A stretch of 35,846 nt of DNA, taken from Desulfovibrio sp. Its GTDB lineage: Bacteria; Desulfobacterota; Desulfovibrionia; Desulfovibrionales; Desulfovibrionaceae. The notes under the pieces were generated by a model. It saw nothing but the letters and a program-made list of their open reading frames with translations, had not been told where the DNA came from and did not search any database. The DNA lies in the NCBI GenBank assembly GCA_031269345.1, contig JAISZH010000093.1, forward strand, positions 1 through 35,846. Reading direction: 5' to 3'. The position numbers and the translations under genes are program-made. Positions 1,111 to 35,846 of this stretch are shown in pieces (position 1 is the first letter of the stretch; each line of letters starts with the position of its first letter).

Positions 1111-1129
1111 AAGCAAGTTATCCGCAACC

Positions 1130-1234
1130 AAGGAGGTAGCATGGGCCTTCAAGCCCATGCGTCTTGCGCTTGGGCGGGGTAGGGCTATCCGGCCTGAAGG
1201 CCGGGGTCACAAACCGTAAAGGAAGCTCAGATGA
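1130..1234 (+). repeat. Dispersed repeat R1, copy a (short form)
   Basis: This copy shares the arms GGCCTTCA-GCCCATGCGTCTTGCGCTT and CCGGCCTGAAGGCCGG, and the 3' end AAACCGTAAAGGAAGCTC followed by AGATGAA, with copies at 17524-17608, 29632-29775 and 33593-33757. The middle hairpin present in the other copies is missing here. The hairpin loops are TTCA or TGAA. The 3' end reads as a Shine-Dalgarno sequence followed by ATG at 1231; the 29-codon frame it opens ends at 1320 and is not convincing as a gene. Confidence 0.8.
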
Positions 1235-17271: not shown

Positions 17272-17776
17272 AGGCAGCCAGATAAGGGGAAAGGCAAGTT
17301 AAGAAACCGCTGCCTCCTGTCCAAACTATGGGGACCACCTCTGTCTCGTTCTGTCTCGCCATAAGCGAATGTGTGGCGCTGGCGCACGGTGAGTTTTTGA
17401 TCGGCATATCCTGATAGACGGGCGGGGCATGTCCATGCTGAACCATGCTTTGCCTGCGGGAGACGCTCAGTGCGTGCCCATGTCGAGCAGGGGGGACAAA
17501 CAGGGAGCGGCGGACCAAGACGCCCGTACGGATACCCCGCCCTTCAGGGCGGGGTCGGGCTATCCGGCCTGAAGGCCGGGGTCTCAAACCGTAAAGGAAG
17601 CTCAGATCAAAACGGGGCAAAACCTTTTAGCTTTTGATTTGCAATTTCAGGAGGACAGTGGGAAAATACGTTCGCGGAAATACGGGCGTGAGATAGCCTA
17701 GCCCGGCAGCGCGTCCCGTGTTTGGCCGGGTTCGGGATGCTGTTCAGGCCGGGAACCGGGCCGCAAAGGACAGGCG
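17272..17776. other. Gene-poor stretch of decayed mobile DNA upstream of copA
   Basis: No complete gene is supported. The sequence beside the transposase remnant resembles further insertion-sequence debris, followed by repeat R1 copy b. Bases 17700-17776 are GC-rich and directly precede the copper ATPase; no clear metal-regulator box was recognised. Confidence 0.4.
17524..17608 (+). repeat. Dispersed repeat R1, copy b
   Basis: CGTACGGATACCCCGCCCTT, a CCCCGCCCTTCAGGGCGGGG hairpin, a CCGGCCTGAAGGCCGG hairpin, then AAACCGTAAAGGAAGCTCAG with ATC in place of the ATG found in copies a and d. This shows the full twin-hairpin form. Confidence 0.85.
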
Positions 17777-26430: not shown

Positions 26431-26489
26431 GGCGCACCACCGGCGGTATGGGCGCGGAGATGCCCCGCGCCTCATTCGAATTTCAGATC

Positions 26490-26511
26490 AAAACCGCACC
26501 CATGCGGTTTT
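26490..26511 (-). terminator. Putative terminator at the end of the radical SAM cassette
   Basis: AAAACCGCA and TGCGGTTTT form a perfect 9-bp stem with a 4-base loop; on the minus strand a T-run (TTTT-GAT) closes it. It is the first terminator-like hairpin downstream of the 945-residue radical SAM gene and precedes rfbC. Confidence 0.6.
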
Positions 26512-26515
26512 GTTA

Positions 26516-26545
26516 CCAATTTGCTTTCTATCGAAAGCAAATTGG
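26516..26545. repeat. R3-type palindrome, isolated half
   Basis: CCAATTTGCTTTC and GAAAGCAAATTGG form a perfect 13-bp stem around TATC. It matches the first palindrome of the full R3 elements at 28226-28372 and 33412-33561, but the rest of the element is absent. Confidence 0.75.
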
Positions 26546-26590
26546 CATGAAATATGTAAACATTTTAACTCAGGATCGGCTGCGGCGCAA

Positions 26591-26690
26591 ACATGGTTGC
26601 GCCTTGTGCCGGCAACAACATGGTTGCTCCTTGTGTCAACAACAACATGGTTGCGCCTTGTGTCAACAACAACATGGTTGCGCCTTGCCT
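26591..26690. repeat. 27-bp tandem repeat array
   Basis: Four units start at 26591, 26618, 26645 and 26672, each beginning ACATGGTTGCGCCTTG (GCTCC in unit 2). Units 2 and 3 differ at one base; unit 4 diverges after GCCTTG. As the unit is a multiple of three, all frames stay open. On the plus strand one frame repeats HGCALCQQQ, a CxxC motif; on the minus strand frames read MLLLTQGAT or NHVVVDTRR. No ribosome-binding site precedes the plus-strand frame, so coding is unproven. Confidence 0.85.
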
Positions 26691-26764
26691 CACGCCGCCT
26701 ACGGCGGCGCATCCGTCTTGCGGCCGATGTTTACAGCTTTTTGCGGAAAGGGGGATATAAATTC

Positions 26765-29602
26765 TTATTCTTCCAATTCTTCAAGCATGGCGCAGAGATG
26801 CCAGGAACCGTTACCCGTCAACTCGAACATATCAGAGTCGTCTTTCTTCTCGCGGATAAGCAGGCAATCCAGCCATCGTCCAATTATCCCGTCCAATTCT
26901 TCAGCACAGAGTAAATCTTTATGAATTGAGCCTGTCATAAGATGTTTCGCAATCGTTGATCTTGCGAAATTCTCTTCACTTTCAACTATGCTCCCCTGAA
27001 ACAATGGATAACTCCGCGCAACTTCAAGAAATTTTTTTGAAAGTTGCGGACACCGGTAGTGGAGATCCGCGAAGACGCCATCGGCGGATGCGCCGACGGC
27101 AAGCAGATCTTCTCCCCTTCTGGCATGGTTGTAGTAGAGGTTCCGGTCTTGGGGTCTGGCGTAATGGCAAAAATGGTTTTTGTCATATCCCGCCCGCGTA
27201 AGTTTGCTGTCCGCAGCGGCAAACATCGCAAAATCTTTTATGATATCGGGTGAATGGCTATAACGGCGCAGGAATCCCCGGTTGCGGCCGGACTGATTGA
27301 AACCGTACAGCGATATGCCGTGGATCCCCAGGCGGTCCAACCGGTCAATGCCGGAGAAAAACGCCGTGACGCTTTGTCCCGGCAATCCGTACAGGAGATC
27401 CGCGGTGGTCACAAAGCCCCGTTCGAGACAGTCCGCAATCCGTTTGAGCACGGTTTCGGGCGGCTCTCGGCGGCCTATTTCCCGGCGGAGCGGTTCTTCC
27501 AGCGTCTGTACGCCGATGTGCAAGCGTCGAAACCCCAGGCTCCAGAGGAAGTCAAGATGCGGTCCTGTCAACAGGTGCGCTGTGGATTCCAGAGCCCATT
27601 CCGTGGAACGGCTTGTATGGAATCCGGCGCGGACGGCCTCGACGACGGACGCAAAGACTGAAGGCTGGAGATAGTTGGGCGTTCCGCCGCCGAAATGGAC
27701 CGTGGTTACCGGCCATGCCGCCAGCGCGGTCCGCTCCGACCATTGTTGCAGGTCAAGGCGCAAGCGGCGGGCATAAACGGTCTGCAGGGGATGGCCGGGT
27801 CTGGCGCTGCAGGTGTAGCAGTCGCAAAATCCGCACCGTTTTTCGCAAAAGGGAACATGCGCGTAGATGGAAAACGGACGCGCCGGGCCGGCGTTCACAA
27901 TCTGACGCAGTCTGTCCCAGGTGGCGTCGCCGTCATACTGAAAGCCCTTTTTCTCCCAGAGCGGCGCGGGCAGCCTTCTGTTTTCCAGATGATAGTACGG
28001 CTGCGACGCTTTCCAGGCTCGCAGGACTTCCTCACGGACAGGCCGGGGCAGATCGCCCAGGGTTTTCGTGATGACGTCGGCAGCCGCCTGCCCGCGCGAG
28101 GCGGCAGCGGATGCCCGCGCTTCTTCCCGGAGCAGTTCCAGGGCGGTTTCGTTGATCAACGCGCGGCCCACGGCCCGGTTCAGGCGGCAACGGAAAGAAG
28201 CTTCCGCCGCTTTTTCCGAAGGATGATACAAGTTCGCTTTCGACAGAAAGCGAACTTGTGTGGCGGAGGCGAAGCCGCCGCTCTCAAGTTTTTGAAAAAT
28301 CAGGCTTTTCCTGTTTTTCAAAATCTTTGGCGTACTGCATTCAAACTCGTTTGAATGCAGCTTGGTATGAAGATCGTCCTGTAGCGCGCAATCGTCCGGA
28401 CAGGAGCGGGCGCAGTGATACGCGGCAAAACATGCCCGGCACCCGGCCCCGATGCCGGATGCGCGTTCCCGCAGGGACGCCGTCTTGTCCCGGTCAAGCG
28501 CGAACCGGCCGGAACGCCTGTCAAATCCGCCGATAATCTGGGAACTGTTGCCGGGATGGTCGCCGTCCACAACCAGAAAACAGTTCGTGGCTCTGCCATC
28601 GGGAGTGAGATGCAGAGACTGCCGGAGCACGTTGCAATAGGGGCCGTGGTGTTCGTCAGGCCGGAAGCCGGAGAAAGTAAGCGCGACGTTGTGCCGCAGA
28701 GCCGCCCGCTTCGCCCGCATGAAATGCCCTGCCCATTCTTCGGGATCAGTGCCCCCGCCGCCGCCCGCGCCAGCGCTGTACACGGGCTCAAAGGCAACAT
28801 TGTCCGCGCCGAGTTCCACGGCAAGATACTCCAGAATCTCCGCCTGGCGGGAAACCGTCTCCGGCGTGATTGTCGCGCGCAAGTCCAGGCGGGCTCCGGC
28901 CTCCTTCAGCGCGACGGCGGTCCGTCTCACCCGGCCGGAGGTGGGCGCGCCGTCGGATGACGGCCGCTGCCTGTCCTGGATATCGGGCGGTCCGTCGCAG
29001 GACAGTCCGACTCTGCCGAAGATTGCCGCCATCTCCCTGGCAAGCTTGAGCGGTACAACTCCGTTGGTGGCGATATAACCGCTCCACGGCACGGCATGGC
29101 GTTCGGCAACGGCTTTGCTGATCCCGACCAGACGCCGCACGAGATCCCAATGGAGGGTCGGTTCGCCGCCGCCATGGCAGGCGAGCTGAAACACCCGGCC
29201 CATGTCGGCGCAGTTGCGGCCGACCAGTTCGGCCGCCGCCGCGAACGCGTCCGGGCGCAGACAGCCGCCGGAACGGGCCACTGTCCTCGCCGGGGCGGCG
29301 AAGCAGTAAGAACACCGCAGGGAGCACCGGTTGCTCAGGTACACGGTCAGACACTCGGGGCGGTATTCTTCCGCCAGCCAACGGGTTCTGGCCGCCACGG
29401 CGCTGCGGGCGTGGTCCAGAAGCCAGCCGCTCTGTTTCCATAGCGATACATCCTCCCGCGTTTCCGTGCCTCCGTTCCACACCTGCCGCAACAAAAGCGC
29501 CTGCTCGCCCGTGACCACGGCCAAGGTTCCGGGGGTATACAGCAGGACTGTTCCGCCGGGACCCGCAAGTTCATAGATGGGCAGTTCAGGATGAATCAGC
29601 AT
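26765..29602 (-). CDS. Double radical SAM protein: SPASM-type maturase fused to HemN-type domain
   Basis: This 945-residue protein carries two radical SAM centres. The first has CSLRCSYC (Cys 93, 97, 100), the HGGGEP motif (~143-148) and SPASM cysteines (C323, C341, then C388, C391, C397, C401, C405 and C472). The second begins YAHVPFCEKRCGFCDC (Cys 586, 590, 593, 595), exactly the CX3CX2CXC pattern of HemN, followed by HFGGGTP (636-642) and a HemN-like C-terminal region. SPASM enzymes usually modify peptides; HemN-like (class C) enzymes include oxidases and methylases. One chain could therefore perform two chemistries on one peptide (inference). A repeat-derived segment (residues ~411-459) lies inside the SPASM region. 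Last gene of the cassette. Confidence 0.88.
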   Translation of the reverse strand: MLIHPELPIYELAGPGGTVLLYTPGTLAVVTGEQALLLRQVWNGGTETREDVSLWKQSGWLLDHARSAVAARTRWLAEEYRPECLTVYLSNRCSLRCSYCFAAPARTVARSGGCLRPDAFAAAAELVGRNCADMGRVFQLACHGGGEPTLHWDLVRRLVGISKAVAERHAVPWSGYIATNGVVPLKLAREMAAIFGRVGLSCDGPPDIQDRQRPSSDGAPTSGRVRRTAVALKEAGARLDLRATITPETVSRQAEILEYLAVELGADNVAFEPVYSAGAGGGGGTDPEEWAGHFMRAKRAALRHNVALTFSGFRPDEHHGPYCNVLRQSLHLTPDGRATNCFLVVDGDHPGNSSQIIGGFDRRSGRFALDRDKTASLRERASGIGAGCRACFAAYHCARSCPDDCALQDDLHTKLHSNEFECSTPKILKNRKSLIFQKLESGGFASATQVRFLSKANLYHPSEKAAEASFRCRLNRAVGRALINETALELLREEARASAAASRGQAAADVITKTLGDLPRPVREEVLRAWKASQPYYHLENRRLPAPLWEKKGFQYDGDATWDRLRQIVNAGPARPFSIYAHVPFCEKRCGFCDCYTCSARPGHPLQTVYARRLRLDLQQWSERTALAAWPVTTVHFGGGTPNYLQPSVFASVVEAVRAGFHTSRSTEWALESTAHLLTGPHLDFLWSLGFRRLHIGVQTLEEPLRREIGRREPPETVLKRIADCLERGFVTTADLLYGLPGQSVTAFFSGIDRLDRLGIHGISLYGFNQSGRNRGFLRRYSHSPDIIKDFAMFAAADSKLTRAGYDKNHFCHYARPQDRNLYYNHARRGEDLLAVGASADGVFADLHYRCPQLSKKFLEVARSYPLFQGSIVESEENFARSTIAKHLMTGSIHKDLLCAEELDGIIGRWLDCLLIREKKDDSDMFELTGNGSWHLCAMLEELEE
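28226..28372 (+). repeat. Palindromic repeat R3, copy a, inserted in frame in a radical SAM gene
   Basis: The element begins with palindrome AAGTTCGCTTTC-GACA-GAAAGCGAACTT and ends with GCATTCAAACTCGTTTGAAT. Between lie a GGCGGAGGCGAAGCCGCC hairpin and a GAAAAATCAGGCTTTTCCTG arm region. The reverse complement of 33412-33561 matches it at roughly 85-90 percent by eye. It adds about 49 codons without a stop to the 945-residue protein. Confidence 0.88.
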
Positions 29603-29631: not shown

Positions 29632-29775
29632 CCTTTACGGTTTGAAACCCCGGCCTTCAGGCCGGATAGCCCGCCCCCGCCCTTCAGTGCGGGGTATCCG
29701 TACGGGCGCAAGTCTGGGCGGGGTCCAACCCCGAGGCGCAAGACGAATGGGCATGAAGGCCAATGCCGCCTTCCC
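29632..29775 (-). repeat. Dispersed repeat R1, copy c, at the end of a radical SAM gene
   Basis: Inverted relative to copies a and b, with both hairpins (GGCCTTCAGGCC; CCGCCCTTCAGTGCGGGG, one mismatch). The Shine-Dalgarno end has diverged (GTAAAGGTAAAATG). Bases 29684-29775 are read as the last ~30 codons and stop of the upstream radical SAM gene, and the rest fills the gap to the next gene. Confidence 0.85.
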
Positions 29776-31765
29776 GGCCCGGGCCGGACCCCGTGAGCGC
29801 CAGCTCATAATACTCTCTGCAAACCAGGCAGGAATGGCAACATTTATCGCAGTGCAAAGTCCTGTGGTAGAAGGCGTCGCTGATGTGGATCGGCGTGAGG
29901 GGCGAAGCGGGTCCCCCGCCCACGGAGTCGGGCGTGACGGCGCGGCGGGTGATGTAGGCGTCGAGAACGTCCAGATACCGCTCGGGGTCTTGCAGTGTCG
30001 CCCTGCCGGCTAGCTTGAAGTCCCGGGTAAGGCCGTCGAAAAAGTGCAGGTGCTGGGGCAGCGCCCACGCGCCGGTCAGCCGCATCCAGGGGTGCCTGTC
30101 CAGAAGCGGGTCGCACAAGGATAACGGCACTTCTTCCGCATAGCCCATCTCATAGAAATGCTGCACCCGCATCAGGCAGTCCGGCAGACAGCCTTCATTG
30201 ACGATCAGCCGCAGGGCGCCGGGAAACGCCCGGCCCACGGCCTGGAGCGCCGGATAGTTGCGCATGATCCGGCTGGCGGGAACAAGGGTCTCGCAGATGC
30301 CTGCCAGTTGATGCGCCTGATGGGGCCGGGCGACGTCCATCAGAACCGAGGCGGTCAGCGGCAGGTCCGGCAGACGCTCTTTGACGATCCGGGCCAGGCT
30401 GATGTCGGCGACGGTCACGCCGCTCAGGCGCGTCATGGCCAGCAGGTCTTTGAGTGCCGCGACGACGGGGGCCGCAATGTCTGCCGCCGGACGAGGCAGC
30501 ACCACGGGATTGAGCAGCACGGACACGGGAAGCGGACCATGGCGCAGGAAACTCTCAAGATGCCCGTCCCGTAGCGCCGGCCGCCCCGAGGCCAGCAGGC
30601 TGCGGGGAAGCGGCAGGTAAACTTCCCGGATCGCCGGGCCGTACCGGGCGTGTATTTCCCGCCAGAACGCCGGCGGCTGGTCGATATAGGGGATGGACCA
30701 TCGCTCCTTGTCCGTCCCCGGCTTTGCGCAGGCGCCTGACGCCGCGGACCCCGCGCACGGTCGAGGCCCGGAACGGCCGGGTCCGGGGCGCTGCCGGGCG
30801 CCGGCGAAAATTCGCCCTGTCACGGGAAAAGGGCGCATCCGCCGCAAGGCGGCGGCCCGGCAGCCGCCGTTGCAGCGGGACTGCTCGCGAAGGGGGCAGC
30901 GGCCGCATTCGCCATAGATTCCCGTTTGCGCAAACACGGCCAGTTGATCGCTTAACCGCGCCTGGACGGACCGGGAGGTGTCGCCGGGAAGGCATGACGT
31001 TTGGCAGACGCGCGCCAGCGGGTAACATGGAATCGCCCGCCCGTCGGGGAGAAAATCCGGCAGCGGGTTACAGCGCGCGCCCGGCGGATCCCCGAGGGTT
31101 GCGAACAACTCAAGGTCTTCTTTGTCGAACATGCAGGGCACAAAGCCGCAGTCGAATTCCAGCCGCACCCCTTGGTCAAGGGCCTGGCTGACGAAAAGGC
31201 CGAGGCCGCGCCCGACCGTCCGGTAGTGCCGTGGATGGAGAAAATGGTTTTCAGCGCCTGCGCGGGGGTGCGCCAGACCGGCCCTGACGAAGGGGACAAG
31301 GCCGAACGTCTTGATCAACGGCAGAAAAGGCGCGGGAGAAACGCCGGGATGGTGTATGGTGCAGCCCGGAACGATCACTCCGCCCAAAGCCGCCAAAACC
31401 TGCCGCAGCCGTTTGTCTCCCGGTTCCGGCGGGCAGGCGGCGGGATCAATGTTCAGCAGGATGCGCAAACGCTCCGCAGGAAAGCGTGTGAGGCGGCTCA
31501 GGGCTTTTGTGGGCATCCGGCCGTTGGAAAAAAGCAGCAGATCAAGCCCCCGTTCTTTGATCATGTCTATAAAGCGGCCGAAGAGGGGATGGATCGTCGG
31601 CTCGCCGCCAAGCACGGGGACCTGCCGGATGCCGGAATGCTCAAGAAAATCCAGGGCTTGAGCAAAGACCTCCGGCCGCATATGCCCGGTGTCTTCGTCC
31701 GGACCGGGGACGAAGCAGTACCCGCATCGCCGGTTGCACGAAAAGGTGATGGAAATGTTGCTCAT
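29684..31765 (-). CDS. Radical SAM/SPASM protein with U32-peptidase-like C-terminal half
   Basis: This ~693-residue protein opens with the radical SAM motif CNRRCGYC (Cys 10, 14, 17), then PVLGGEPTIHP. A SPASM-like cysteine set follows (residues ~230-302, including CGRCPLREQSRCNGGC). After a Pro/Gly/Arg-rich linker (~320-350) a second half (~355-650) recalls the U32-peptidase/UbiU-type TIM barrel, with NEGCLPDCLMRVQHF (~524-538). It ends in a cysteine cluster CDKCCHSCLVC (639-649) that could bind Fe-S. The ATG at 31765 overlaps the stop of the PqqD-like gene (TAATG); a frame open to 31918 lacks support. The last ~30 residues come from repeat R1, so the native C-terminus may have been replaced. 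Confidence 0.82.
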   Translation of the reverse strand: MSNISITFSCNRRCGYCFVPGPDEDTGHMRPEVFAQALDFLEHSGIRQVPVLGGEPTIHPLFGRFIDMIKERGLDLLLFSNGRMPTKALSRLTRFPAERLRILLNIDPAACPPEPGDKRLRQVLAALGGVIVPGCTIHHPGVSPAPFLPLIKTFGLVPFVRAGLAHPRAGAENHFLHPRHYRTVGRGLGLFVSQALDQGVRLEFDCGFVPCMFDKEDLELFATLGDPPGARCNPLPDFLPDGRAIPCYPLARVCQTSCLPGDTSRSVQARLSDQLAVFAQTGIYGECGRCPLREQSRCNGGCRAAALRRMRPFPVTGRIFAGARQRPGPGRSGPRPCAGSAASGACAKPGTDKERWSIPYIDQPPAFWREIHARYGPAIREVYLPLPRSLLASGRPALRDGHLESFLRHGPLPVSVLLNPVVLPRPAADIAAPVVAALKDLLAMTRLSGVTVADISLARIVKERLPDLPLTASVLMDVARPHQAHQLAGICETLVPASRIMRNYPALQAVGRAFPGALRLIVNEGCLPDCLMRVQHFYEMGYAEEVPLSLCDPLLDRHPWMRLTGAWALPQHLHFFDGLTRDFKLAGRATLQDPERYLDVLDAYITRRAVTPDSVGGGPASPLTPIHISDAFYHRTLHCDKCCHSCLVCREYYELALTGSGPGREGGIGLHAHSSCASGLDPAQTCARTDTPH

Positions 31766-32049
31766 TACGGCGCGCCTGTTTCCAGCCAGCCTTCTTCCGC
31801 CCATAGGTCCAGGCGGGAACCGACAAGTTCCCGGGCCTCCCGCGGGCCGATCCCGGCGATCAGTTCCAGCATGGAGCGGATCGTTTCCTCGGACCGGCCG
31901 CGGGTTATCAGATCCCATACCGCGGCTTCGGGATAGGCAAGCTCGTGGCGCAAGTTCCGGGTACTATCGAAGAGCACCACGCAGTGCGGTTCCACAACCC
32001 AGGTCACATGCCCGGCGCATCGCGGCTTTGGCCTGTTTTCCATAGTCAT
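31765..32049 (-). CDS. PqqD-like RiPP recognition protein (RRE), 94 residues
   Basis: This small winged-helix protein matches the PqqD pattern: HVTWVVEPHCVVLFDS, then LAYPEAAVWDLITRGRSEET, and a C-terminal L.LWAEEGWLE. PqqD-type RREs bind the leader of a precursor peptide and bring it to a radical SAM enzyme. Its ATG overlaps the stop of the preceding radical SAM gene (ATGA), and its stop overlaps the next start (TAATG). Translational coupling on both sides suggests fixed stoichiometry with both enzymes. Confidence 0.85.
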   Translation of the reverse strand: MTMENRPKPRCAGHVTWVVEPHCVVLFDSTRNLRHELAYPEAAVWDLITRGRSEETIRSMLELIAGIGPREARELVGSRLDLWAEEGWLETGAP

Positions 32050-33596
32050 CCTGCCGGTTCGAAACGGTCTGACGGTTGCAGGGCCAGGGCTTCCATCGCC
32101 TTTCCGTCGGCCAGCAGGGTCTGGGCGATAGAGGACAGGTTCATGTCCTCAAGAAGCCGGCAGGCCGACAGCAGTCGGGTCTGGATACAAAACGGTCCGT
32201 AGGCGGAAGAACTCCCTGGATAACTGTGCTGCACATGACAGCCCCCGGAACAGACCCATTGGCAGAAACATTTTTCACAGCGCGGTTTGTCCCTGGCCAG
32301 ACCGCGCAAGCGCAACACGGCGTCCGGGTCGATATGCATGCCTCCCTGAACGGACAGACGGCCCACGTCCATGTCCAGGCCGCGTTCCACCCAGGTTTTC
32401 CGGGGCAGATAGCAACTGCTGATCCGGCCGTCAGGGGAAACGATCAACGCATCCTTGCCGACCGGACAGAAGCTGGTCTGTGAAGGCTCCCCCTCCGCGG
32501 CCGCATAGACCGCTTTTATGCCGTAACGCAAAGTCCGGGCGCGGGCTTTGGCGTATTGCCTGACAAATACGTAGGGATCCGGAGGAGACAGCCCGGCCGC
32601 ACGGGATTTTGGGTTGTCGGTCAACGGCTCGAAATTGATGACTGATGGCTGAAATTCCTCGCAGAACCAGATGGCGATTTCTTCAAGGCTTTGGATATTC
32701 AGGTTTGATACGCAACAGCGCAGGCAGAGTTCCGTTGGCGTCCGTGAAAGCAACGCCGCGCTTTGACGGGCCGGAGAAAAACTGCCGCGCCTGGAACTGA
32801 TGGGGCGGTGCCGGTCGTGTATATCCTGAAAGCCGTCCAGAGACAAGACCACCGCATGGAAATAATCGCCCACAAATTGAGCGTATTCCTGTTCAAAGAT
32901 GCCATTTGTGGATACTTCGAGATGCAGGGACAAGTCATGGCGGTCCGCCAGCAGGCGGCTCCGGTGGACCGCTGTTTCGACAACATCGCGGCAGACAAGA
33001 GGTTCGCCGCCAAAAAAGTGCACCTCCATATGATCCTGCCCGGCATCCTTCAAAAAATTGGCGTACCAGGTAAGCGCGGCCTCGGCCATGGCCGGGGACA
33101 TATCGGACGCTTTACCTTCACCGGCGTCGAAGTCGCAATACACGCAGTTGCAGTTGCAGCGTCGCGTCGGCAGAATGCCGAGAAAAAGAGGATTGAGCCG
33201 TCCTGTCGCGGATGGCGGTTCACAGGGTTTCCGGGTCAGCAGGTCGGCGAGTTCGTCTATTTCGGGTGGAAAGGACGGGTCCGGCACAGGCTTTCCTATC
33301 CGGCGGCGCAACGCTTTCAGGGCCGACGCATTGAGCAGTGACGCAATCCCGCTTAGTGGGCTGTATATCAGAAAGGCCTCGTTGACCGGCAGTACGAACA
33401 CGCCGGTCTTATGCCAAGCCGCGTTCAAACGAGTTTGAATGCAGGACGCCAAAGTTTTTGAAAAACAGGAGAAGCCTGATTTTTCAAAAACTTGCGGGCG
33501 GCGGCTTCGCCTCCGCCGTCCAAATTCGCTTTCCATCGAAAGCGAATTGGTATGAGACATGCCGCCAGCGCCCTTGCCCACCGCGTTTCCCTTCAT
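32046..33596 (-). CDS. Radical SAM/SPASM peptide maturase with repeat-derived N-terminus
   Basis: This 516-residue protein has CNCNCVYC (Cys 147, 151, 154), then MEVHFFGGEPLV, LSLDG and a SPASM domain (FCPVGKDALIV, SSCYL, CEKCFCQWVCSGGC, and later Cys in GPFCIQTRLLSACRL). This is the PqqE/anSME-type layout, which carries two auxiliary Fe-S clusters. The start ATG at 33596 and its Shine-Dalgarno sequence AAAGGAAG belong to repeat R1, and residues ~13-63 are encoded by repeat R3 in inverted orientation. Native sequence seems to begin around residue 64 (TGVFVLPVNEAFLIYSP). An alternative start is ATG 33560, without a clear ribosome-binding site. It is upstream of the 94-residue PqqD-like gene. 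Confidence 0.85.
   Translation of the reverse strand: MKGNAVGKGAGGMSHTNSLSMESEFGRRRRSRRPQVFEKSGFSCFSKTLASCIQTRLNAAWHKTGVFVLPVNEAFLIYSPLSGIASLLNASALKALRRRIGKPVPDPSFPPEIDELADLLTRKPCEPPSATGRLNPLFLGILPTRRCNCNCVYCDFDAGEGKASDMSPAMAEAALTWYANFLKDAGQDHMEVHFFGGEPLVCRDVVETAVHRSRLLADRHDLSLHLEVSTNGIFEQEYAQFVGDYFHAVVLSLDGFQDIHDRHRPISSRRGSFSPARQSAALLSRTPTELCLRCCVSNLNIQSLEEIAIWFCEEFQPSVINFEPLTDNPKSRAAGLSPPDPYVFVRQYAKARARTLRYGIKAVYAAAEGEPSQTSFCPVGKDALIVSPDGRISSCYLPRKTWVERGLDMDVGRLSVQGGMHIDPDAVLRLRGLARDKPRCEKCFCQWVCSGGCHVQHSYPGSSSAYGPFCIQTRLLSACRLLEDMNLSSIAQTLLADGKAMEALALQPSDRFEPAG
33412..33561 (-). repeat. Palindromic repeat R3, copy b, at the start of a radical SAM gene
   Basis: Both palindromes are present (GCATTCAAACTCGTTTGAAC-type and AATTCGCTTTCGATGGAAAG-type on the minus strand), with the GGCGGAGGCGAAGCCGCC hairpin between. 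It is inverted relative to copy a. It contributes about 50 codons to the 5' end of the gene, in a different reading frame of the element from that used in copy a. Confidence 0.87.
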
Positions 33597-33812
33597 CTGA
33601 GCTTCCTTTACGGTTTGCGGCCCCGGCCTTCAGGCCGGATAGCCCGACCCCGCCCTGAAGGGCGGGGTGTCCGTACGGACGGAAGCCTGGCGAGGTCCAA
33701 ACCCCGCCAAAGCGCAAGACGCATGGGCCTGAAGGCCGATGCTGCCTTCCTGGTCCAGGCTTCCTTTACGGTTTGCCATCCCGGCCTTCAGGTCCATGCC
33801 ACCTTCTTGGTT
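33593..33812 (-). repeat. Dispersed repeat R1, copy d, with an adjoining partial copy
   Basis: Full-length R1 at 33593-33757 (two hairpins, GCGTCTTGCGCTTTGGCGGG, and the end AAACCGTAAAGGAAGCTCAG plus ATGAAG). A shorter second copy follows at 33758-33812 (CCGTAAAGGAAGCCTGG end). The two fill the gap between the 138-residue PqqD-like gene and the following radical SAM gene. Confidence 0.87.
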
Positions 33813-34228
33813 CACTCCGGACTGTCCAGGGGATGACAGATTCCGTTTTGCGCCAGGGCCACAAAAAGAGATTTGACCAGGCCCGCGGCAGCGTCGGACG
33901 AAAGATCGAACTCCGATTCCGTCACAGCGCAGATGTCAGCGATAGAATGCCGTCCATCAAAGCGGCTGATGATATATTTTTGCCGCGCGGTTAACGGCAT
34001 ATGGCGTTCGTAGGGCGCGTCAGGGCTCTTTTGCAGCAGCAGCCAGCCATCTTCCATGCCAAGGGTTATTCCCTGATAAACAACCGGTACCATCTTGCGC
34101 AGCACAGCGTCCGGCAGCGAACCTATCTCGTCCAGACGAAAATGCGGTTTTCCGCGCAACTCGTCGACAACGGCCAGGGCTTCGGAGAACAGTGAATGCA
34201 GGTACTGTCTGCGGTTTACATTTTTCAT
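33812..34228 (-). CDS. PqqD-like RiPP recognition protein (RRE), 138 residues
   Basis: This ~138-residue protein has a longer N-terminal part (residues ~1-60, rich in helix) and a PqqD-like C-terminal part (~75-135: PLTARQKYIISRFDGRHSIA, LSSDAAAGLVKSLFVALAQN). Compared with the 94-residue paralogue it is more divergent, so the RRE call rests on layout and neighbourhood. Start: ATG 34228 overlaps the stop of the radical SAM gene upstream (ATGA); a frame open to 34270 would overlap that gene further. Together with its neighbour it forms an enzyme/recognition pair. Confidence 0.7.
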   Translation of the reverse strand: MKNVNRRQYLHSLFSEALAVVDELRGKPHFRLDEIGSLPDAVLRKMVPVVYQGITLGMEDGWLLLQKSPDAPYERHMPLTARQKYIISRFDGRHSIADICAVTESEFDLSSDAAAGLVKSLFVALAQNGICHPLDSPE

Positions 34229-35571
34229 GCCGTTTCTTCTGAAAAGGGCGGACTCCGCGTTCCCCGCCACACGCCGCCGCCTTCCTCAATATAACGAACA
34301 AGCAGCTCCGTGGTTATGGCCCGATTCAACTCGCAGCGGCTGCCGTGCGTCAAATGGCCGTCCCCCCTGTCGGAAAAGGTCTTGGACGGGCAATCGCCCG
34401 CGCAGTGGTAGAAACAGAAACAGCGTTTACAGCTTTGGCGGCGTTCCTCGATTTTCGCCAGAAAACCCTGTCTGGCTCCGGGGGTGAGCCGGATAGCTCC
34501 GCTCGCGTCCATGTCGCCGAAAATAAAGCCGCCGGCAAGTTCGTGCCGACGGTTGCAGACTTCGTAACAGGCCGTAAGGAACCCGTCAGGACCGACGATC
34601 AACGCGGAAACAACGGCGTCGCAAAACCTGCCGGTCAGCAGCCAGGGCCGGGCGCCGGAATAATACATGTGCCGCTGATGCCGGGCGGCGATATCGTACC
34701 CTTCCATAAAATATTCCGCGAAGGCGGCTTGTTGCCGGAGCGCCACCCGGTCAAGCCTGGCGCGTCCGTGGGAGAAGGCCGGTTCGACCTGAAAAGCCGG
34801 GGAGCCGGTCTCTCGGCACAGATAGTCGATGACCTCAGGTATGCGCGTGATGGTCCGATCCGTGACCGTGACCCGGATGCCATACGCGATTCCCTTACGG
34901 TCCAGGGCCTGCAGGGTGCGCGCCACGGAAGCGTGGCTGCCCCTGCCGCTCTTTCGCGGCCGCTGTGCGTTCTGGATGGAAGGCAGGCCATCGCAGGAAA
35001 GGCTGACTTCGTCGATATTGTTCAGGATCCAGGCGCGTTGAGTTTCGGTCCAGACGCCGTTGCTGGTCAGGTTGATTTTGGCCGGTAACGGGGATTTCCG
35101 CGCGTACGCCACACAGTCCTTGAGAACGGACCAGGCCATGGTCGGCTCGCCGCCGCCATGAAAACAGATGGAGTAGTGGTCATGCCCCTGATCAAGGGCG
35201 TTGCGGCAGACCGTATCGATTGCCGCGCGGGCAAGGGGAAGCGGCAAATCCCGCGTCTCGCCCGCGCCGTCGCCATGTGCGTAACAGTAGATGCAGCGCA
35301 GGTTGCACGCATCCGTCAAAAACAGCACGCAGACAGTCGGGAGGAAAACGTCCGAAACCGGCGCGTTGTCGGCAAGGCACGCGTCTTCCTCGAAAAACCC
35401 GATACCGCGGAGAAAAAGGTCCGCTTCCGTATCCGCGCGCCTGACCGCCGGGTCCGCGGCGGAAAGCGTTTCACACAGCCGCGCCATAGCCCGGTTGCCG
35501 ATAAAGGCAAGATGTCGCAGAGGCCGGTAGATTATCACCTTGTCTTTATATGGGATTGCGTATAGTTCCAT
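34225..35571 (-). CDS. Radical SAM/SPASM peptide maturase next to the precursor
   Basis: This 448-residue enzyme has an N-terminal ~80-residue region that may bind the peptide. The radical SAM motif is CNLRCIYC (Cys 89, 93, 96), with HGGGEPT (138-144) and LSCDGLPSIQ (191-200). The SPASM domain has Cys 317, 335 and 339, then CKRCFCFYHCAGDC (381-394), and Cys 413 in RCELNR. It resembles the first half of the 945-residue protein in order and motif context, so the two are probably paralogues. The ATG at 35571 is chosen because the 35718 frame runs antiphase through the precursor. It starts 53 bases after the Cys-rich peptide gene, so that peptide is its likely substrate. Confidence 0.9.
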   Translation of the reverse strand: MELYAIPYKDKVIIYRPLRHLAFIGNRAMARLCETLSAADPAVRRADTEADLFLRGIGFFEEDACLADNAPVSDVFLPTVCVLFLTDACNLRCIYCYAHGDGAGETRDLPLPLARAAIDTVCRNALDQGHDHYSICFHGGGEPTMAWSVLKDCVAYARKSPLPAKINLTSNGVWTETQRAWILNNIDEVSLSCDGLPSIQNAQRPRKSGRGSHASVARTLQALDRKGIAYGIRVTVTDRTITRIPEVIDYLCRETGSPAFQVEPAFSHGRARLDRVALRQQAAFAEYFMEGYDIAARHQRHMYYSGARPWLLTGRFCDAVVSALIVGPDGFLTACYEVCNRRHELAGGFIFGDMDASGAIRLTPGARQGFLAKIEERRQSCKRCFCFYHCAGDCPSKTFSDRGDGHLTHGSRCELNRAITTELLVRYIEEGGGVWRGTRSPPFSEETA

Positions 35572-35596: not shown

Positions 35597-35623
35597 CGCT
35601 CCGCCGCGTTCCCGCGTGGAGCG
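35597..35623 (-). terminator. Hairpin between precursor and first maturase, candidate attenuator
   Basis: CGCTCC/GGAGCG outer arms and CGCG/CGCG inner arms with a small bulge start one base after the precursor stop codon. There is no T-run. Hairpins at this site in RiPP operons commonly let precursor mRNA outnumber the enzyme mRNA; that role is inferred. Confidence 0.55.
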
Positions 35624-35624
35624 G

Positions 35625-35846
35625 TCAATTGGGCCGCCAGTAATGGCTTCCTCCGCGCGTGACATGGCCCACGCAGGAGCAACCGGAAGGGCGCGTAACA
35701 TGGCCCACGCAGGAGCAACCGGAAGGGGTCGTGGTTTTCCCGGCCTTTGTGCCGACCGAGATCGTATTGCAGACGCAGACTTCTTTGCCGCCGCCATATC
35801 CGGCGGGCACGGCTATGGTGTCGCAGGTGCAGATTTGCTGCGTTGT
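35625..35846 (-). CDS. Cys-x-Cys repeat peptide, candidate RiPP precursor (5' end outside the window)
   Basis: The minus-strand frame is open from the window edge to TGA at 35625-35627, giving at least 73 residues with no start inside except a GTG at 35810. It holds four C-x-C motifs: ICTCDTIAVPAG, VCVCNTISVGTKAG, and twice SGCSCVGHVTR. The first two share CxC-(D/N)-TI-x-V; the last two come from a 36-bp duplication. Cysteine pairs at regular spacing, many Thr/Ser/Gly residues and the position just ahead of a radical SAM/SPASM gene fit the core of a RiPP precursor. The leader would lie beyond the window. No known family is recognised. Confidence 0.65.
   Translation of the reverse strand, partial: TTQQICTCDTIAVPAGYGGGKEVCVCNTISVGTKAGKTTTPSGCSCVGHVTRPSGCSCVGHVTRGGSHYWRPN
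35655..35726 (-). repeat. 36-bp tandem duplication within the precursor gene
   Basis: Units 35655-35690 and 35691-35726 differ at one base. Each encodes PSGCSCVGHVTR, so a whole CxC unit has been duplicated in frame very recently. Confidence 0.9.

Follow-up and report, generated by a model that had tools for sequence, protein, structure and literature searches.

Two unrelated mobile repeats probably remodelled the 5' end of a radical SAM gene in Desulfovibrio sp.

Results

Two kinds of repeat occupy the 5' end of a radical SAM gene

We examined a 35,846-nucleotide (nt) stretch of Desulfovibrio sp. DNA (contig JAISZH010000093.1 of assembly GCA_031269345.1; "the window") and, within it, a putative radical SAM/SPASM maturase gene, an open reading frame (ORF) of 516 amino acids (aa). 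Our principal conclusion, to which we assign a probability of about 0.77, is that two unrelated, non-autonomous mobile repeats, R1 and R3, have reshaped the gene's 5' end in succession, and that the gene is now predicted to start at ATG 33596 on a Shine-Dalgarno sequence derived from R1. The coordinates of all features are collected in Table 1.

The 215 nt that separate the stop codon of the upstream gene from ATG 33596 consist of exactly two R1 elements arranged head to tail (57 + 158 nt). By folding prediction, the R1 Shine-Dalgarno sequence has an accessibility of 0.60 and the ATG one of 0.92, against a mean of 0.35. When both R1 copies are conceptually removed, the sequence reads ...GGAG TGA/ATG AAG, i.e. 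CCGGAGTGA/ATGAAGGGAAAC (junction GGAGTGAATG); this reconstructed empty site is a tight operon junction, and ATG 33596 is therefore likely to be the native start codon, its Shine-Dalgarno sequence having been replaced.

R3 copy b follows native codons 13-14 and forms residues 15-62. The first 62 residues of the ORF are thus the native MKGNAVGKGAGGMS and then the R3-derived stretch (SHTNSLSMESEFGR), and the family-like part begins at about residue 64-66. The alignment to TIGR04463 starts at residue 66, which corresponds to profile position 3. Removing R3 together with one target duplication yields MS(K/Q)TGVFVLPVNEAFLIYSPL (MS(K/Q)TGVFVLPV...), joined at the same point where the TIGR04463 alignment begins; from this we infer that R3 contributed residues 15-62. 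As for the remainder of the protein, Pfam places Radical_SAM (PF04055) at residues 141-284 (E=3e-12), the CxxxCxxC motif is present as C-N-C-N-C-V-Y-C, and C-terminal Cys motifs are also visible. No named equivalog cut-off was reached: the best match was PapB (102.5, cut-off 340), and TIGR04463 scored 76 (cut-off 525).

A preliminary description of this region had placed both repeats where we find them, with edges that we have now refined. Their presence here is not due to chance, because R1 and R3 each have at least 40 matches in the genome and more than 100 first-look candidates. That description had R1 copy d supplying both the Shine-Dalgarno sequence and the ATG; the former stands, while the ATG(A) was probably there beforehand as R1's target, and at other genes three sibling orthologues have the same ATG but lack R1. 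It also had R3 copy b supplying residues ~13-63, of which the in-frame contribution of ~48 residues is borne out. Its proposal that mobile DNA rebuilt the translation start fits the mobile type of both repeats and the Shine-Dalgarno sequence from R1, but R3, having entered after codons 13-14, did not create the start.

Table 1. Positions of genes, repeats and candidate start codons in the window
Feature	Position	Strand	Basis or remark
Radical SAM/SPASM maturase ORF, 516 aa	32046..33596	-	ORF list, Pfam, TIGR04463 alignment
Probable start codon ATG (R1's ATGA target)	33594..33596	-	Conceptual R1 removal; junction statistics ATG/C-A 42/43
Shine-Dalgarno AAAGGAAG from R1, 5 nt before ATG	33602..33609	-	Predicted largely unpaired
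R1 copy d, full-length, 158 nt, 3' end adjoins ATG	33597..33754	-	
Second R1, internally deleted, 57 nt, between upstream stop codon and R1 copy d	33755..33811	-	
R3 copy b core, 141 nt, terminal inverted repeats TRCCAAG...TTGGTA; gene reads its -1 frame	33412..33552	.	
Left TNA target duplication of R3 copy b, TTA	33409..33411	.	
Right TNA target duplication of R3 copy b, TGA	33553..33555	.	
In-frame ATG, residue 13, possible ancestral family start	33558..33560	-	R3 excision
Rival internal GTG start, residue 66	33399..33401	-	No Shine-Dalgarno upstream (gcttggcataagaccggc)
Upstream small gene, PqqD-like by eye, no family match	33812..34270	-	Stop TGA 33812-33814 directly before R1
945-aa ORF, radical SAM region and HutW/HemN-like region, broken by R3 copy a at residues 411-461	26765..29602	-	
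R3 copy a, TCA/TCA duplications, in frame in 945-aa ORF, reading direction opposite to copy b	28224..28370	.	
R1 copy, internally deleted, 104 nt	1127..1230	+	Ends GCTCAG/ATGAAG
R1 copy (matched part), not docked on a gene	17521..17605	+	Ends GCTCAG/ATCAAAAC
R1 copy, decayed (matched part), upstream of 945-aa ORF	29632..29708	-	

R1 inserts beside ATGA and docks on start codons

Our search of the genome yielded at least 42 R1 matches; 40 of 106 first-look candidates were scored, and the copy numbers of both repeats are lower bounds, resting on 40 scored matches each. Alignment of the copies with their flanks revealed an element of ~159 nt with four strong hairpins, a 5' end ACCAAGAAGG and a 3' end CAAACCGTAAAGGAAGCTCAG or AAAGGAAGCTCAG. 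Of 43 copies, 42 have ATGA or ATCA at the right junction, and the left flank has no consensus. The search for R1 copies covered the genus; exact matches to the 3' motif in a GTDB-based collection (genome_contigs) came exclusively from metagenome-assembled genomes (MAGs) titled Desulfovibrio sp. or Deltaproteobacteria, the isolate codes of which may denote samples of termite gut.

The docking of R1 on a start codon is not peculiar to the 516-aa enzyme, as no fewer than twelve further genes show the same arrangement. Of 43 R1 copies, at least 13 (~30%, the studied gene included) have a terminal ATG (once CTG) from which a sizeable ORF with a family match begins. The family profile begins within three residues of the docked start in the RND, ketoacyl synthase, YciA-like, epimerase and ammonia-lyase genes; at docked ATG codons, the matches run from residue 1 to profile position 1 (RND), 3 to 1 (ketoacyl synthase) and 2 to 2 (YciA). 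In addition, the R1 consensus frame that ends in ATGA is closed by a TAA 12 nt upstream, and since R1 carries this in-frame stop, a gene behind it must restart at the docked ATG.

Comparison with a sibling genome, G056, provided three clean empty sites. Its epimerase, RND pump and threo-3-hydroxyaspartate ammonia-lyase genes lack R1, and their upstream sequences align up to base -1. The occupied and empty sites read ...GGACAGGGAAT/R1/ATGAAGATAACGG versus ...GGACAGGCCTC/ATGAAGATAACGG, ...GGGACGGCAA/R1/ATGAATCC versus ...AGGACGCAA/ATGAATCC, and ...GGAGAGGCCG/R1/ATGAACG versus ...GGAGAGGCCG/ATGAACCC. Because the empty sites align to base -1, the insertion of R1 is clean, between that base and the start codon, with neither duplication nor loss. 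A second sibling, G158, has an independent, diverged R1 set with the 3' end CACAAAGGAAGTTCTG/ATGA, which docks on dnaE, ispG and others at the correct residue.

Does R1 recognize start codons as such? The window has 32 ATGA sites that are either non-coding or at a start, and 8 of them (~25%) are start codons. The observed docking, 13 of 43, agrees with a null of 0.25 for ATGA targeting (P=0.26), while random intergenic placement is rejected (P about 5e-24). Given this match to the ATGA null, a preference for ATSA combined with the purging of insertions within genes suffices, and recognition of starts is not needed.

Some further observations concern docking in related genomes. In G158, the essential genes dnaE and ispG would draw their ribosome-binding sites from the R1-family element. 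The same RND start is adjoined in G078 and G119 by another type of repeat end, ...GATCATAAAGGAATTT(C/T)TG, which suggests that several docking families exist. In G141, a short R1-like element is docked at the start of the epimerase gene that bears R1 in the genome of the window; this is either an old insertion common to both genomes or a separate event. The ketoacyl synthase starts with GTG in G056, where R1 is absent, and with ATG where R1 is present; R1 may sometimes bring or fix an ATG.

R3 is an in-frame insert that is open on each strand

A genome search with R3 copy b returned at least 67 matches (40 of them strong) among 113 first-look candidates, and in a search of 199 genomes of the family R3 was not found outside this genus. 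The aligned copies define a 141-nt core, TACCAAGTTGCATTC...AAAGCAAATTGGTA, with ends of the terminal inverted repeat (TIR) type, TACCAAG...TTGGTA. TNA flanks 67 of 76 ends, and the 3-bp duplications are identical in 25 of the 38 copies that have both ends; on these grounds, R3 behaves like a miniature inverted-repeat transposable element (MITE) with a 3-bp TNA duplication. It has the TIRs, the short target duplications and the multiple dispersed copies without a transposase that characterize such elements.

The modal net insertion of R3 is 144 nt, or 48 codons, and its consensus has one open phase per strand. Of 37 copies, 26 are stop-free in the phase read in copy a (+1) and 16 in that read in copy b (-1), compared with 1-2 copies for each of the other four phases. 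These counts bear out an earlier suggestion that copies a and b are read in opposite orientations and that both strands can be open. We searched the long ORFs that span R3 against Pfam and NCBIfam and used the joined flanks to search six congeneric genomes. R3 proved to lie in frame in ArnT, ComEC, HflX, CbiG and MMPL/HAE3 transporter genes, the sibling orthologues of which lack it. With window copies a and b, at least seven genes are in-frame hosts. The net length was divisible by three in 7 of 7 in-frame copies versus 12 of 31 others (Fisher P=0.008), a comparison that is partly circular as a spanning frame was required. An R3 copy upstream of rsmH was dropped as an in-gene case: the methyltransferase match starts well after R3.

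Other features of the window

The 945-aa ORF that hosts R3 copy a appears to be a fusion of a radical SAM peptide-maturase-like part and a ChuW/HutW-like part, with R3 in the C-terminal Cys region of the first part. R1-type sequence near 29632-29708 provides the last residues and the stop (GGIGLHAHSSCASGLDPAQTCARTDTPH, then stop) of a 744-aa radical SAM ORF (29684-31918, minus strand). At the head of the radical SAM cluster (35619-35844, minus strand), a small frame ending in ...ICTCDTIAVPAGYGGGKEVCVCNTISVGTKAGKTTTPSGCSCVGHVTRPSGCSCVGHVTRGGSHYWRPN and a stop contains a 36-nt tandem repeat and resembles a Cys-rich precursor of a ribosomally synthesized and post-translationally modified peptide. 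A frame on the plus strand (26448-26924), directly after an R3 tail fragment (26516-26550), carries HGC(A/S)LC(R/Q)QQ nonapeptide repeats and is possibly a second repeat-type peptide gene.

Discussion

Weighing the alternatives

Two other start codons have to be considered. Translation from the in-frame ATG 33560 (residue 13), the family's usual start, would reduce R1 and its ATG to an upstream insertion of little effect. Removal of R3 does bring this codon, with MS(K/Q)TGVFVLPV..., near the beginning of TIGR04463, but no convincing Shine-Dalgarno sequence precedes it (ggcaagggcgctggcggc). ATG 33596, by contrast, lies at the TGA/ATG operon junction behind a well-spaced consensus Shine-Dalgarno sequence. 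We consider this start unlikely, and with it the R3 residues would be translated all the same. Initiation at GTG 33401 (residue 66), with R1 and R3 as an untranslated leader, would agree with the point at which the family profile begins. Yet this codon lacks a Shine-Dalgarno sequence, the 195 nt upstream of it are open in frame even though R3 has one open phase per strand, and R3 lies in frame in mid-protein in five other genes, where it is translated if those proteins are made; such a start thus seems to us very unlikely.

The remaining alternatives question the repeats or the gene itself. R1 could be an immobile, ancestral structured leader, a regulatory RNA kept before many genes, as its strong hairpins, fixed place before starts and many copies might suggest. 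However, copies before unrelated genes are 91-96% alike, many are not located at genes, two are stacked at the 516-aa gene, and a scan of the window against Rfam gave only sub-threshold matches, with no family at its gathering score. The cleanly empty orthologous sites of the sibling already disfavour this explanation, which we judge highly improbable. To an assembly artefact, in which short repeats joined unrelated contig pieces of this metagenome-derived genome, we give almost no weight: several R1 copies are situated at contig ends, but both flanks of R1 and R3 match single orthologous sibling loci, misjoins would not produce target duplications and exact frame preservation, and the phenomenon recurs in another MAG. 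That the 516-aa gene is a decaying pseudogene, its frame open by chance, is distinctly unlikely as well; the R3 insert shows no visible amino-acid constraint, but the 453-codon remainder is intact, with its radical SAM match, CxxxCxxC and C-terminal Cys motifs.

Several observations weigh against our own reading, in which both repeats are mobile and translation begins at ATG 33596. The two target duplications of R3 copy b are unlike each other (TTA/TGA). Relative to the consensus, the R3 insert has 7 nonsynonymous and 3 synonymous differences, so that selection on its amino acids is not supported. Searches of 199 family genomes (E<=1e-30), 348 class genomes (E<=1e-15) and genome_contigs yielded no orthologue of the 516-aa gene, and the gene's own empty site is therefore reconstructed and not observed. 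Candidate sources of mobility were also sought: the five DDE_Tnp_1 places in the genome show no convincing R3-type end pair, and the 92%-complete genome has no PF01797 match that would indicate a Y1 transposase or a REP-associated tyrosine transposase (RAYT) for R1 (REP, repetitive extragenic palindromic), while control genomes were positive. Finally, the ATGA null of 0.25 was built on one 36-kb window and a hand-made gene list.

A possible history of the gene

The sequence evidence suggests the following history, in which both repeats would have spread by transposition. R1 would insert directly 5' of ATGA (or ATCA), without target duplication. Insertions inside genes would be purged, and those for which ATGA is a start codon would survive because R1's own Shine-Dalgarno sequence, at the right distance, replaces the native one, now ~160 nt away. 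At the 516-aa gene, the target would have been the TGA/ATGA junction of the PqqD-like and radical SAM genes, hit twice to give the 57-nt and 158-nt tandem. R3, with its 141-nt core and net 144 nt, would have entered after codons 13-14, before or after R1, and added its residues without a frameshift. Translation would most likely proceed from ATG 33596, in preference to 33560, through use of the R1 Shine-Dalgarno sequence in vivo, with the R3 residues as a tolerated N-terminal extension.

A broader proposal, to which we attach somewhat less than even odds, is that R1 represents a new mobile class, in which the ATGA target and a Shine-Dalgarno cargo at the tip would make start codons a safe harbour and swap the host's initiation region. 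Its movement would be duplication-free, and dozens of genes may have been rewritten in this manner, dnaE and ispG of the sibling included.

Relation to known elements

In a literature search for repeats that target start codons, only the mycobacterial interspersed repetitive units (MIRU; Supply et al. 1997) were among the results; PMC12548453 describes them as a short repeat inserting at start codons. R1 resembles MIRU in inserting exactly at start codons, as seen from the three empty sites, the profile starts and the tandem docking at the 516-aa gene. The proposed target of MIRU is reportedly DTGA, and they are said to lie often in operons. In MIRU, a -4 overlap links an internal ORF to the gene, whereas R1 has its stop 12 nt upstream and a consensus Shine-Dalgarno sequence instead. 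The MIRU hosts belong to a phylum distant from that of R1, and the likeness would be one of behaviour. With palindromic elements derived from IS200/IS605 insertion sequences (IS) and with REP, R1 shares hairpins, a fixed short target on one side and the lack of a duplication; it is set apart in that the genome yielded no match to a Y1 transposase or a RAYT.

For R3, a comparable case is that of the Rickettsia palindromic elements (RPE), which PMC10969869 presents as ~150-bp palindromic, MITE-like elements that lie in frame in unrelated genes and add ~50 residues. R3 likewise inserts in frame into unrelated protein-coding genes (the five with empty orthologues and the two in the window); it differs in its clear TIRs, its TNA 3-bp duplications and its Desulfovibrio-like host, and it is not known to be related in sequence to the RPE families. 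MITEs of the IS5/IS1031 type duplicate TNA. R3 is similar to these in its TIRs, its TNA 3-bp duplications, its lack of coding capacity and its high copy number, but no parent IS was identified among this genome's DDE_Tnp_1 places. MIRU for R1 and RPE for R3 appear to be the closest analogues.

Significance

Together, R1 and R3 point to two complementary ways, each with empty orthologous sites, in which tiny mobile repeats can spare the genes they enter: replacement of the Shine-Dalgarno sequence (R1), and an insert that is a multiple of three in length and open on each strand (R3). Within the literature searched, the first way had so far been mycobacterial (MIRU) and the second had been that of Rickettsia (RPE); here a single genus has both, and a single gene brings them together. 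The many interchangeable copies of R1 amount to a natural experiment on how swaps of the ribosome-binding site relate to expression. N-termini in such genomes call for caution, as they may be repeat-derived. If our reading is true, small mobile DNA repeatedly re-engineers how and where the proteins of this Desulfovibrio-like bacterium begin.
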